From Chryseobacterium gleum (GTDB taxonomy: Bacteria; Bacteroidota; Bacteroidia; Flavobacteriales_D; Crocinitomicaceae): 42,471 nt of DNA. Below are positions 37,312 to 42,206 of the stretch, in pieces. The DNA lies in contig CAMDMY010000019.1 of NCBI GenBank assembly GCA_945902775.1, forward strand, positions 1-42,471, read 5' to 3'. Position 1 is the stretch's first letter. Every line of letters begins with the position of its first letter. A program made the translations under genes and the position numbers. Under the pieces are notes generated by a model. The model was given only the letters and a program-made list of their open reading frames with translations, searched no databases and was not told where the DNA came from.

Positions 37312-38355
37312 TTACTCAACAACTTCGTTCATTAATTTGTGTTGAGTTACTGCGAGTAAATCATTAAAAAAAACATTAATCGGACTTTCAGTATATACAG
37401 CATTGATTCCATGAATTACAAAGATTTCTAATGCTTGAGTTCTTAAATTATTCGCATGAAAAATAAATTTATCTTGGATTTGATTTGAAGTGTTTGAATC
37501 AATAGTTGGTTGATTAATTAAATCAGTAATTACTCCAGAAATCTCTTTTTTTGCATTTTCAAGTAGTATTAAACCTTTCGAATTTAGATTGCTCATTTTC
37601 AATAATCTATCGGATTGTCGGTTGTTAAAAGTTTGAGATTCTTTCATCGTATTTTCCGTTTCGTCTAGTAAACGTTTGAAGATTCCAAAGGCTACAGAGA
37701 TAAAAAAGGCTTGAGCATAGATTATAAAAGGGAGTTTGAAAACTGTTTCATCCAAAAAAGATTTTTTCTCGTAAACACTGAAAATATGTTCATTCGGAAT
37801 AAATACATTCTCTATTTCAATTGAATTCGTGGATGTGTTTTTCATTCCAACTGTTTTCCAATCTTCAATTATTTTAACTTCATCTCGAGGTATGATTCCA
37901 GATTTAATTTCTTCTGAATCTCCCATTTTGAAAGTAACCGTAAATAATGTAGCATATTCAGAACCGCTACAAAACTTCCATTTTCCTGAGACAATGACTC
38001 CACCTTCAACAAGAATGGCATTAGTAGTTGCAGTTCCACTTCCTGCTATAACAGCATTTTTTTTTGAGAATAAATCAATCCCTATTTTTTCTTCGAAATT
38101 GGTCAAAAAGTAATTGCCTCCATTTCCAATCTGAATTAACCATCCGAGACTTCCATTCAAGTAAGAAGCATCTTCAATAATTGAAAGAGTTTGAGGAATA
38201 GTTAGACCCAAGCCGTTCACTTTTTCGGATAGAAAACATTTAAATAACTTATGTTCAAACAATAAATCGATTTCTTTTTGAGTCAATTTATTGGAATATT
38301 CACCATTTGAATTTTTAAATGAATCTTTGAAAATTTCTTTAACGGAAGGAATCAT
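37312..38355 (-). CDS. Acyl-CoA dehydrogenase-fold flavoprotein (possible flavin monooxygenase)
   Basis: 347 aa, short for the family (about 380). The three-domain plan is visible: N-terminal helices (EIDLLFEHKLFKCFLSEKVNGLGLTIPQ split by the ECKVNGLG-like turn), a middle beta domain (AVIAGSGTATTNAILVEGGVIVSGKWKF cut here to its key words AGSGTAT and SGKWKFCSGS), and C-terminal helices ending FNDLLAVTQHKLMNEV. The WKFCSGSEYA segment and the lack of an obvious catalytic-base Glu bring it nearer to HpaB/DszC-type oxygenases than to true dehydrogenases. It follows the TonB-dependent receptor gene by 87 bp on the same strand and may be under the same TPP riboswitch. Substrate unknown. Confidence 0.75.
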   Translation of the reverse strand: MIPSVKEIFKDSFKNSNGEYSNKLTQKEIDLLFEHKLFKCFLSEKVNGLGLTIPQTLSIIEDASYLNGSLGWLIQIGNGGNYFLTNFEEKIGIDLFSKKNAVIAGSGTATTNAILVEGGVIVSGKWKFCSGSEYATLFTVTFKMGDSEEIKSGIIPRDEVKIIEDWKTVGMKNTSTNSIEIENVFIPNEHIFSVYEKKSFLDETVFKLPFIIYAQAFFISVAFGIFKRLLDETENTMKESQTFNNRQSDRLLKMSNLNSKGLILLENAKKEISGVITDLINQPTIDSNTSNQIQDKFIFHANNLRTQALEIFVIHGINAVYTESPINVFFNDLLAVTQHKLMNEVVE

Positions 38356-38369
38356 ATTTTTTCTATTTT

Positions 38370-38440
38370 AAGGTTAAGGTTAAGGTTGAGGTTAAGGTTG
38401 AGGTTGGACTAACTTTATCTCAACCTCAACCTAAATCTCA
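38370..38440. repeat. AAGGTT/GAGGTT hexamer repeats with inverted partner
   Basis: Six uninterrupted hexamers (38370-38405: three AAGGTT, GAGGTT, AAGGTT, GAGGTT), then after 14 bases the complementary AACCTC/AACCTA/AATCTC words (38422-38440). AGGTTGAGGTTG (38395-38406) pairs perfectly with CAACCTCAACCT (38421-38432). It lies between the receptor gene and the flavoprotein gene and could be a terminator-like or processing hairpin, but it lacks a clean T-run. Confidence 0.85.
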
Positions 38441-38442
38441 AT

Positions 38443-40941
38443 CTACAATTTTAAAGTTACTCTTATCAAGAAATTTCTCCCTGCTTGTGGGTAGTAATAA
38501 TTTTCTGTAATTCTTTTTCCTCCTGAAATATATCCAAAAGTATATCCATTATTTTCATACAAATAGTTGAAGATATTATTAACTAAAGCTCCAATTTTAA
38601 TTTCTTTGAATCCCCAAGTTTTGATGGTGTAATTGATAGAAAGATTAGAAGTATAGTATGAATTTAATTTTTTATTTTCATCAGATGTGTTATCTAAATA
38701 TTGTTTACCAACGTATTTTGATTGTAGCGTAACATCTAGATTTTTAATCGGTTCATACATAACTCCTAATGCAGCAATCGTTGATGGAGAGAAAGCAATG
38801 TCCGTATTTTTATGAGTAATTACTGTTTGAATCATATTTCCATTTGCATCGTAATTGTCATAATTATCTACGTACTCATTGAATTCGTTGATTTTATTTT
38901 TACTAAATGTAATATTCCCAGTTAAACTTACTTTTTTACTAATTAAATATCCGGCTTCAAATTCAATTCCTGTTCTGTAACTTTTAGCAACATTCGCTCT
39001 ATTATAAGCACCAACGTCATTAATTTGACCTGTTAAAATTAATTGATCTTTGTAATTCATTAAATAGTAATTCACATTCGTAAATAATTTACGAGCATGG
39101 TAACGATATCCTACTTCAAGGTTTTGTAATTGCTCAGGCTTTGGTCTACTATATATTGAACTCTGAACAAAATCATCTCGAACTGGTTCACGATTTGCCA
39201 TACTAAATGAAGCATACAAATTGTTTTTATTGTTGAAGTCATACATTATTCCCGCTTTAGGATTGAAAAATGTAAACTCAACATTTTGTTTTAAAGGAAC
39301 AAGATTTGCATAATATTGGTCGTCTCCATTGTAATCATAGCCAATATGACGAAACTGTAAATCTGCGAAAACATTTGCTTTTTTGATTTGATAGTTTAAT
39401 TTCACATATCCATTCAATTCAGATTTGTGAGCAATATTATCATAATAATGTTGGTTTACTTCACTGGTTGAAGCGTTTCTAGCCCAAATGATTTCTCCAA
39501 AATGTTTACCATCATATTGATTTGCACCACCACCAATAATTGCTTTAAAGTTTTTTAAATTGTTATACGAAACTGAAAAAATTGCTCCGTAAAAATTGTT
39601 ATCCAACCATCTTCTTCTGATTAAATCAGTTTTTGAAATAGTATCATTTCCTTTAAAAATAGTATCTAAACCATACGTTGAGAATTTTTGATCGATACGA
39701 TATTGCTCATAGTATCCTTCTCCGTGTGTAAAATGTGAAGCTAGATTTAAAGTAACTTTTGGATTAAGTACATGAGAGAAATGAAGTTGATAATGCGTTT
39801 GTTGGTAATTATCAGTTTCATTTTTATAATTGTAATAATTGTATTTTCTTGGGTCTGAATTAAATAAATTTAATGAGTCTTTCGCTGTTTGATACGTTCC
39901 TCCAGGATAATAGTTAGTGTAAAAATGTGAAGTTAAACTATCAATGTTTCCTTTTAATTTCGCTTCAGGAATACCATACCAAGCTTGATATGTTTTTTCT
40001 TTTCCACTAAAAACGTTTGCTTTTATAATTGATTTTTTTCCAATCCAAGCACCTGATAAATAATAAGAAGTTAAGTTAGAATTCGCTCTGTCGATATAAC
40101 CATCTGAAGAAATTCTAGATAACCTTGCATCTACAACAAACTTATTGTTTATTAATCCTGTACCAACTTTAATTGTGTTTCTTAAGGTATTAAATGAACC
40201 TCCAGAATTGTCTAATTCAGCATAAGTATCTTTACGAATATTATCCGTTTTCACATTGATACTTGAACCAAAGGCCGCTGCTCCATTCGATGATGTACCA
40301 ACACCTCTTTGAACTTGAATGTTGTCTGTAGATGAAGCAAAATCAGGCATGTTTACCCAAAAAACTCCGTGCGATTCAGAATCATTAAGCGGTATACCAT
40401 TTACCGTAACATTTGTTCTGGTTGGGTCAACCCCTCTAATACGAATTCCTGTATAACCAACTCCTGCTCCTGCATCAGAAGTTACAACCGTTGATGGTGT
40501 AGATTGCAGTAAATAAGGTAAATCTTGACCGAAATTATTTTTTTGAATTTCTTTTTCGTTCAAATTAGTATAGGTTGTCGGTGTTTTTTCAGTTGCCCTA
40601 ACCGCTGCAACTTGAACTTCTTCCATCATTAACGCAGAAGGAATAAGAATTAGATTTTGTTCAAGGTCAGCATCTTTTAATACCAAATTGAAATACTGTG
40701 TTTCATAACCAATAAATGAAATGTTTAGTCTCAAAGAATCGTCTTTGATGTCATTTAAAAGATAAACACCTTCCGAATTTGTATAAGCACCATTGTAAGT
40801 GTTTTCTATATTGATTCTAGCTCCTGGAATGGGAGAACCTTCTTGGTTTGTGACTTTTCCTTTGATGGAGTGTTGTGCATTTGCTCCGAACGATGTAGCA
40901 AGTGCAAACATCAAAAGCGCTTTAGAAATTCTTGTTTTCAT
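38443..40941 (-). CDS. TonB-dependent outer-membrane receptor, predicted thiamine receptor
   Basis: 832 aa. Signal peptide 1-22 (GANAQ), then a carboxypeptidase-regulatory-like beta domain (about 24-100: SIKGKVTNQEGSPIPGARI and the SFIGYETQ end). A TonB-box-like EEVQVAAVRA (107-116) precedes the plug (about 118-232: TGIRIRGVDPTRTNVTVNGI, with IQVQRGVGTSSNGAAAFGSS). The 22-strand barrel follows, ending NFLIRVTLKL. Its leader contains a TPP riboswitch, which is the main reason to propose thiamine or a thiamine derivative as ligand; regulated receptors of this kind in Bacteroidota have been called OMR1. It lies 150 bp from the kinase gene on the same strand. Confidence 0.92.
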   Translation of the reverse strand: MKTRISKALLMFALATSFGANAQHSIKGKVTNQEGSPIPGARINIENTYNGAYTNSEGVYLLNDIKDDSLRLNISFIGYETQYFNLVLKDADLEQNLILIPSALMMEEVQVAAVRATEKTPTTYTNLNEKEIQKNNFGQDLPYLLQSTPSTVVTSDAGAGVGYTGIRIRGVDPTRTNVTVNGIPLNDSESHGVFWVNMPDFASSTDNIQVQRGVGTSSNGAAAFGSSINVKTDNIRKDTYAELDNSGGSFNTLRNTIKVGTGLINNKFVVDARLSRISSDGYIDRANSNLTSYYLSGAWIGKKSIIKANVFSGKEKTYQAWYGIPEAKLKGNIDSLTSHFYTNYYPGGTYQTAKDSLNLFNSDPRKYNYYNYKNETDNYQQTHYQLHFSHVLNPKVTLNLASHFTHGEGYYEQYRIDQKFSTYGLDTIFKGNDTISKTDLIRRRWLDNNFYGAIFSVSYNNLKNFKAIIGGGANQYDGKHFGEIIWARNASTSEVNQHYYDNIAHKSELNGYVKLNYQIKKANVFADLQFRHIGYDYNGDDQYYANLVPLKQNVEFTFFNPKAGIMYDFNNKNNLYASFSMANREPVRDDFVQSSIYSRPKPEQLQNLEVGYRYHARKLFTNVNYYLMNYKDQLILTGQINDVGAYNRANVAKSYRTGIEFEAGYLISKKVSLTGNITFSKNKINEFNEYVDNYDNYDANGNMIQTVITHKNTDIAFSPSTIAALGVMYEPIKNLDVTLQSKYVGKQYLDNTSDENKKLNSYYTSNLSINYTIKTWGFKEIKIGALVNNIFNYLYENNGYTFGYISGGKRITENYYYPQAGRNFLIRVTLKL

Positions 40942-40999: not shown

Positions 41000-41017
41000 G
41001 TTTGTAAATAAAAGTAT

Positions 41018-41100
41018 CATCTTCCCTTCGCAGGCATTATCCTGACAGGTTCAATGGGTATAATCTCAGCCAGTCTTTCGTTTGGCACCCCTTAGAGATG
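41018..41100 (-). promoter_or_regulatory. TPP (THI-box) riboswitch
   Basis: Minus strand shows the conserved aptamer in order: GGGGTGCC (41091-41084), CTGAGA, ACCC, TTGAACCTG, GGATAATGCC and GCGAAGGGA. P1 can form from CATCT (41100-41096) and AGATG (41022-41018). GGGGTGCC directly follows the TAA stop of the kinase gene, and the 5' P1 strand lies in its last two sense codons. The aptamer is read into the TonB-dependent receptor gene, which starts 77 bases downstream. It should reduce receptor expression when thiamine diphosphate is plentiful. Confidence 0.97.
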
Positions 41101-41601
41101 GGGTAAAGATAGTCTTTCAATTACCTCCTTGCAAGTTTTTAAGCGGGTTTCTAAATTTCCTGAAATCACATTGAATGGTAAGTTATTCTTTTTCAATTCA
41201 TTAAGATAGATATCGAATAGCATTTCTCTATCGTTTGGATTTTCTCTTAATGGATCTTCTTCCCAAGGAATATCCGGATAACAAAGAAAGTAATGATCAA
41301 ATTTTTGTTGCTTGTAAAGATTTAAAATAGTTTCACTACACGATTTGTATTTGAATTCAGACCAAATTTTGATGACAGTCATTTCGGTATCGCATATCAA
41401 AAAATTAGTTTGAATCGCTTCCAATGAATTTACTTGACCTATTGCAATTGTATCTAAATCTTGTTGATTATAAATTCCATTTCTATCTAACAAATAATTT
41501 CGCGCAAATTCAGGAACCGAACTAGCATTGTATTTAATAGCTAATTTTTCAGTCAAGGTTGTTTTACCAGAAGACTCAGGACCTGTAATTGCAATTTTCA
41601 T
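41092..41601 (-). CDS. NadR-like AAA-family nucleoside/vitamin kinase
   Basis: 169 aa P-loop kinase resembling the ribosylnicotinamide kinase domain of NadR. Walker A GPESSGKTT (7-15), VPEFARNYLL as the lid/substrate segment, ICDTEMTVIKIW containing the catalytic-type Asp, and CYPDIPWEEDPLRENPNDRE matching the NadR PDIPW..D..R loop. It lacks the NadR NMN adenylyltransferase and DNA-binding domains. Its start overlaps the pnuC-like stop by four bases (ATGA), so transporter and kinase are translationally coupled. In PnuC systems the kinase traps the imported nucleoside by phosphorylation. The TPP riboswitch at its 3' end suggests thiamine as substrate, but nicotinamide riboside remains the alternative. 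Confidence 0.88.
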   Translation of the reverse strand: MKIAITGPESSGKTTLTEKLAIKYNASSVPEFARNYLLDRNGIYNQQDLDTIAIGQVNSLEAIQTNFLICDTEMTVIKIWSEFKYKSCSETILNLYKQQKFDHYFLCYPDIPWEEDPLRENPNDREMLFDIYLNELKKNNLPFNVISGNLETRLKTCKEVIERLSLPHL

Positions 41602-42206
41602 ATCGAACTTTGTAATTTAAAGATTTTTCTCCATTGAAAATAGCCAATTATGGCAATTGTGGTATAAAGTACAAATAGGAGGGATGTTAAGTAAAGTCCT
41701 CTTGAAGCAAAAATATAGATACAAACGGCATCGATGATTATCCAATAAATCCAGTTTTCTACTACCTTTTTAGTCACCATAAAAGTGGCAACTAAACTAA
41801 AAATGGTTGAAAATGCATCCGTATATGGATTTGCTTGTGCTGTGTATTTGTCAAAAATAAATCCAATAGTTAAAGTTAAAATCCCACTAAAAAAGAAATT
41901 TATCAAATGATGTTTTAGTTTCCATTGAATCAATATTCCATCATTTTTATTTAGGTCTTTTTTCCATATTAACCAACCATAAATAGCCATAGCAACGTAG
42001 AAGAATTGAAGTCCAGTTTCTAAAAATAAATTAGAAATATAGCACAAGTAAATATAAATGGAAGAACTGATCAAAGCAAAAAGCCAAGCAGCAATTTTTT
42101 TGAGAGAGATAAGAATCACATAAATTATTCCTGATAAAACTCCAAACCACTCTATAAGTGAAGTATTTAAAATACCTGATTTTATATTTTGAATGATTTC
42201 TAACAT
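41598..42206 (-). CDS. pnuC: PnuC-family vitamin transporter (PnuT-like thiamine or nicotinamide riboside)
   Basis: 202 aa inner-membrane protein with about seven hydrophobic segments. Family features are WFGVLSGIIYVILISLKKIAAW at the start (shown by GVLSGIIYVILI), the SSSIYIYLCY helix, LQFFYVAMAIYGWLIWKKD with the aromatic YGWLIW motif, and the C-terminal LTSLLFVLYTTIAIIGYFQW. PnuC proteins are facilitators that depend on an intracellular kinase. Here the kinase gene overlaps directly. Proximity of a TPP riboswitch and TonB receptor points to a PnuT-type thiamine transporter; I see no NAD gene nearby. No riboswitch or clear promoter is visible before its start. Confidence 0.9.
   Translation of the reverse strand: MLEIIQNIKSGILNTSLIEWFGVLSGIIYVILISLKKIAAWLFALISSSIYIYLCYISNLFLETGLQFFYVAMAIYGWLIWKKDLNKNDGILIQWKLKHHLINFFFSGILTLTIGFIFDKYTAQANPYTDAFSTIFSLVATFMVTKKVVENWIYWIIIDAVCIYIFASRGLYLTSLLFVLYTTIAIIGYFQWRKIFKLQSSI

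Follow-up and report, generated by a model that had tools for sequence, protein, structure and literature searches.

The PnuC-family transporter and the short NadR-like kinase encoded near the end of the 42,471-nucleotide stretch of DNA analysed here (the window) very likely form, together with the neighbouring TonB-dependent receptor, a thiamine salvage module that would supply ThiL with thiamine monophosphate; substrate, product and regulation are predicted here from sequence. We propose that the receptor would carry thiamine across the outer membrane, that the transporter, of the PnuT type, would mediate facilitated diffusion of thiamine across the inner membrane, a mechanism borrowed from the characterised PnuT, and that the NadR-RNK-like kinase would use ATP to phosphorylate the hydroxyethyl group, trapping the vitamin as thiamine monophosphate; ThiL would convert this into TPP, which may in turn shut off the receptor through a riboswitch. 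On a wider scale we favour, on balance, the view that the kinase represents a widespread family of thiamine kinases originating from the RNK domain of NadR, which would have arisen while PnuC shifted its specificity from nicotinamide riboside (NR) to thiamine, the pair switching vitamin together, and would have replaced thiamine pyrophosphokinase (TPK) in many Bacteroidota.

As reported in Table 1, inspection of the sequence with profile and covariance searches gave the minus-strand order transporter, kinase, TPP riboswitch and TonB receptor. The initial annotation, which had described a PnuC-like transporter paired with a NadR-like kinase and adjoining a TPP riboswitch and a predicted thiamine receptor, was confirmed in these points: the transporter matched PF04973 with 171 bits (cut-off 27.3) and TIGR01528 with 114 bits (cut-off 42.45), as expected for a membrane protein of the PnuC fold, and by sequence the solved PnuC structure 4qtn (E 3.4e-11); PF13521 was the only Pfam family matching the kinase (97 bits); and the aptamer scored 60.5 bits with the covariance model RF00059, above the gathering threshold of 54.3 (E 1.4e-9). 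The two reading frames share the four nucleotides ATGA, an overlap found in 55 of the 105 PnuC-kinase pairs in the loci retrieved, and are probably translationally coupled through it. In the Crocinitomicaceae genomes surveyed, 81 of 85 short kinases were immediately preceded by a PnuC gene in the same orientation and 38 of 85 were immediately followed by a TPP riboswitch, hence the arrangement is more than a chance one.

Table 1. Features of the proposed thiamine salvage locus, in minus-strand order (positions in the window)
Feature	Position	Strand	Size and basis
PnuC-family transporter, assigned PnuT-type thiamine transporter	42206..41598	-	202 aa; PF04973, TIGR01528; tree placement
ATGA overlap, transporter stop / kinase start	41598..41601	-	4 nt; sequence
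Proposed thiamine kinase (NadR-RNK-like, P-loop, no NMNAT domain)	41601..41092	-	169 aa; PF13521; AlphaFold fold; catalytic residues
TPP riboswitch aptamer; overlaps the kinase stop codon and lies ahead of the TonB receptor gene	41102..41006	-	RF00059
TonB-dependent receptor, predicted outer-membrane thiamine receptor (OMthi-like)	40941..38443	-	PF00593, PF07715, PF13715

Beside the locus lies a gene for an acyl-CoA-dehydrogenase/HsaA-like flavoprotein (37312-38355, minus strand), separated from the receptor gene by a short degenerate repeat of the GGTTAAGGTTGAGGTT type (38362-38437). The flavoprotein also adjoins thiamine loci in two relatives (L077, 420-1430; L068, 2244-3257); it follows the TonB receptor in genome G038 and stands directly after a riboswitch and PnuC in G056. 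A second PnuC match in the genome of the window (contig G000:C57) was rejected as a separate gene, being a strain variant of this locus, nearly identical to it and located at the end of a contig; this contig (1-1683, L002) overlaps the end of the window. The assembly, with an estimated contamination of 4%, probably mixes close strains.

The claim that the locus is thiamine-regulated was borne out only in part. A TPP aptamer is present, but it is located on the 3' side of the pair, and its start falls within the kinase gene, whose last codons, CAT CTC, and stop TAA are part of its 5' strand. Because of this downstream position, the riboswitch can govern the receptor and not, by the usual mechanism, the upstream pair, so that its regulatory direction at this locus is predicted to be towards the receptor. 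A Bacteroidota-type promoter was sought in front of the aptamer and none was found. Other arrangements were observed among the loci retrieved: one of them (L143) has a TPP riboswitch before the PnuC-kinase pair and another after it, and in G056 a weak TPP riboswitch (38.9 bits) stands in front of an intact PnuC, the kinase-adjacent copy of PnuC having decayed.

To what extent the organism depends on imported thiamine was evaluated by profile searches, on which all the gene absences reported here rest. In its genome, 99.6% complete, neither ThiC, ThiE, TPK (PF04263) nor ThiK (TIGR02721) was detected, only one TPP riboswitch was detectable, and ThiL (308.8 bits) was found encoded away from the locus; the possibility that a separate thiamine set exists elsewhere in the genome was thus not borne out. 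With this gene content thiamine must be imported and phosphorylated, and the searches detected none of the known enzymes that could carry out the first phosphorylation; a ThiE or a thiamine kinase of unrelated origin may be too divergent to be recognised. The same gap recurs in the family: 71 of the 150 Crocinitomicaceae genomes have the kinase and PnuC and lack TPK, ThiC and ThiE, and none of the 150 gave a ThiK match above the cut-off. ThiC occurs in 4 of 84 kinase genomes versus 38 of the 66 others, and within the genus of the window five genomes carry the pair and no ThiC, five others ThiC and no pair. Three genomes of the family survey have ThiC in addition to the PnuC-kinase pair, which counts against the thiamine reading.

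The kinase shares its fold and its active site with NadR. Its AlphaFold model (pLDDT 95.3) gave as best structural match the RNK domain of NadR 8x7f (Z 22.0, rmsd 2.1 over 169 residues, 26% identity), followed by 6gye (Z 21.2), 1lw7 (19.1) and thymidylate/deoxynucleoside kinases (about 16–17). An active-site skeleton comprising G7, E9, G12, K13, E31, R34, D48, D71, D116, R119, R125 and R153 is common to the kinase and NadR, and includes the catalytic residues of the RNK domain (the P-loop, D71, D116, R119 and R125). Other positions are conserved among the short kinases and differ in NadR, among them Q56 (mostly His in NadR), W80 (Tyr/Phe), E120 and Y132. Given the shared skeleton and these divergent positions, the protein is probably active as a kinase, and its substrate pocket, as read from sequence conservation, is probably altered. 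The alignment to the 325-residue NadR model TIGR01526 is confined to residues 165-318 and, at 73.8 against a cut-off of 341, far below the threshold, which identifies the kinase as the RNK half of NadR only; in fact, its 169 residues contain no N-terminal NMN adenylyltransferase (NMNAT) domain and its PDB matches cover RNK residues only. It is a small and probably soluble enzyme. A weak PF13521 match on contig C48 was set aside, since the sequence looks like that of a deoxynucleoside-kinase-like protein. In the kinase tree, members linked to TPP riboswitches are scattered among the short kinases and do not form one clade. A kinase homologue whose P-loop is destroyed (GNLSNTSE) was observed immediately ahead of a thiC operon and its TPP riboswitch (L070, 3959-4435; G023:C17); it is probably a remnant, either dead or repurposed.

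In the transporter tree, the PnuC proteins linked to NadR are united in a single branch (99/82) to which E. coli PnuC is adjacent (91/90), and the PnuC of the window sits apart from this group, among kinase-linked PnuC and the PnuC of TPK genomes. The latter, when they belong to the same family, interleave with the kinase-linked proteins, and the TPK-linked PnuC of L185 is nested inside a kinase-linked group (99/96). The deep branches of the tree are weak and the long-branched N. mucosa PnuC (4qtn) has no firm place. On the basis of this grouping, in a tree without a biochemically characterised PnuT, and of the linkage to TPP riboswitches (38 of 85 loci in the family) and, in the window, to the adjacent receptor, we assigned the transporter to the PnuT type; the clustering with NR-type PnuC that would have contradicted the initial annotation was not observed.

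Kinase and TPK exclude each other in the family. Among the 150 family genomes TPK was found in 11, none of which has the kinase and ten of which have PnuC. Considering the 93 genomes with PnuC, the kinase occurs without TPK in 82 and TPK without the kinase in 10, one genome has neither, and no genome has both (Fisher p 1.4e-12); on the PnuC tree of the family the switch is certain only about 2–4 times, which gives just 2–4 independent pairs, not enough for a test that corrects for phylogeny. In two TPK-bearing genomes of one genus (G018, G125) PnuC is followed directly by riboswitch and receptor, with the kinase missing and TPK elsewhere in the genome; other members of this genus carry the kinase between PnuC and riboswitch. 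In another family (L193, L194) TPK itself occupies the slot of the kinase, in a TonB receptor-PnuC-TPK operon, the arrangement described for Bacteroides (PMC5613172). Phylum-wide, the short kinase occurs in 66 of 391 genomes, and TPK in 2 of these 66 versus 185 of 303 without the kinase. The main exception lies outside the family, in genus g30, whose kinase carries a DUF4301 fusion and in which 20 of 20 genomes contain TPK as well; in one (L159) of the two g30 loci examined, a TPP riboswitch and a TonB receptor are still downstream. Fusion to DUF4301, or a position just before it, was observed in the Bacteroidota family f6 (L158, 1536-3716; L159, 3200-5440; L163, 1555-3674). DUF4301 has a nucleotidyltransferase-like motif, PASGAATRM, and may belong to vitamin salvage, since some f6 loci keep a TPP riboswitch and a TonB receptor downstream.

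The alternation with TPK also bears on whether the kinase might act on a precursor or breakdown product of the HMP or hydroxyethylthiazole type instead of on thiamine. A TPP riboswitch would suit any thiamine-related substrate, and a ThiE-like gene is present in a few relatives that lack ThiC, but such precursors could not be joined without ThiE, which is undetectable in the 71 kinase genomes mentioned above, including that of the window, and the substrate of the TPK with which the kinase alternates is thiamine itself; we regard this reading as very improbable.

Another alternative is that the pair performs canonical NR salvage, in which PnuC imports NR, the RNK-like kinase makes NMN and the thiamine receptor is a chance neighbour. 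By family model both proteins are closest to NR proteins (TIGR01528, TIGR01526), and both this locus and PnuC-NadR salvage employ the same transporter and kinase families, with the RNK-domain fold and its catalytic residues. The locus differs in the missing NMNAT domain, the PnuC clade, the TonB receptor, the TPP riboswitch and the alternation with TPK; a pair devoted to NR would not be expected to show recurrent riboswitch linkage or to be mutually exclusive with TPK. Moreover, of the NAD biosynthesis and salvage genes NadR was the one surveyed, and no full-length copy was found in the genome of the window. What genuine NR operons look like in this family can be seen in three relatives (G027, G055, G131), which possess, in addition to the short kinase, a TonB receptor-PnuC-full-length NadR operon with no TPP riboswitch nearby, a PnuC of the separate clade, and a receptor matching that of the window with 86–120 bits, versus 950–977 bits for the receptors of relatives' TPP loci. 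We therefore consider NR salvage improbable; the preference for thiamine expressed in the initial annotation is supported by the clade of the transporter, by the finding of no TPK, ThiE, ThiC, ThiK or full-length NadR in the genome, and by the mutual exclusion with TPK in the family.

Thus, the substrate of the kinase is, from the sequence comparisons, highly likely to be thiamine. With somewhat less confidence, from fold class and ThiL, we propose thiamine monophosphate as the product. A P-loop fold of the NadR/NMP-kinase type normally transfers one (gamma) phosphate and, with ThiL present, the monophosphate is likelier than TPP. Of the earlier suggestion of a thiamine kinase or pyrophosphokinase, the first half is accordingly retained and the second appears less likely. 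A one-step pyrophosphokinase, making TPP directly in place of TPK with ThiL as a leftover, would explain why the kinase holds the slot that TPK has in the operons of L193 and L194, and why ThiL persists in TPK genomes, in which it is not obviously needed; against it, the NadR-RNK/NMP-kinase-like fold, with its P-loop and LID arginines, is typical of gamma-phosphate transfer, and ThiL is kept in nearly every genome of the family, so that we judge it unlikely. ThiL is retained in all 11 TPK-positive genomes as well, all without ThiE, therefore its retention alone is no proof of a monophosphate product, and its distribution was set aside as non-discriminating.

The kinase, usually behind PnuC, is spread across the Bacteroidota: a scan of named genomes yielded at least 567 confirmed stretches, 80 of which were kept for locus analysis. 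Of the 80 loci, 21 have a riboswitch behind the kinase, including records from Cyclobacteriaceae, Cryomorphaceae and Saprospiraceae; many distant loci among the 80, mostly from Bacteroidales, have no TPP riboswitch nearby. Pfam and NCBIfam label the family only as an AAA/NadR-like ATPase, and for this reason NR salvage could be wrongly read into many Bacteroidota genomes, or thiamine salvage wrongly taken to be absent from them. If the proposal is true, the kinase would fill the missing step from thiamine to its phosphate in these genomes, and the pair would be a clear-cut example of a joint switch of vitamin by a transporter and its kinase. In the literature searched we found no NadR-like thiamine kinase; subscription journals and curated databases of the kind of RegPrecise and SEED were outside the scope of the search, and an earlier prediction is possible there.

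In E. coli, ThiK (YcfN) converts thiamine into thiamine monophosphate, which is then processed by ThiL. The same reaction is proposed here for the kinase, which differs from ThiK in its NadR-RNK fold and in giving no match to TIGR02721. On the transport side the closest described system is the thiamine salvage operon PnuT-Tnr3 (TPK) of Bacteroides, BT2396-BT2397, with the receptor OMthi, BT2390 (PMC5613172). PnuT is established in the Bacteroidota, as the initial annotation had maintained, and its combination with TPK is a known one. In both loci a PnuC-family inner-membrane transporter is followed immediately by its thiamine-phosphorylating partner, and both include a TonB receptor and TPP riboswitches. 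By contrast, in the locus described here the aptamer follows the pair and precedes the receptor, and the partner is a 169-residue NadR-RNK-like P-loop kinase in place of a thiamine pyrophosphokinase, suggesting that the same job, the phosphorylation of thiamine, would be done by a different kinase family.
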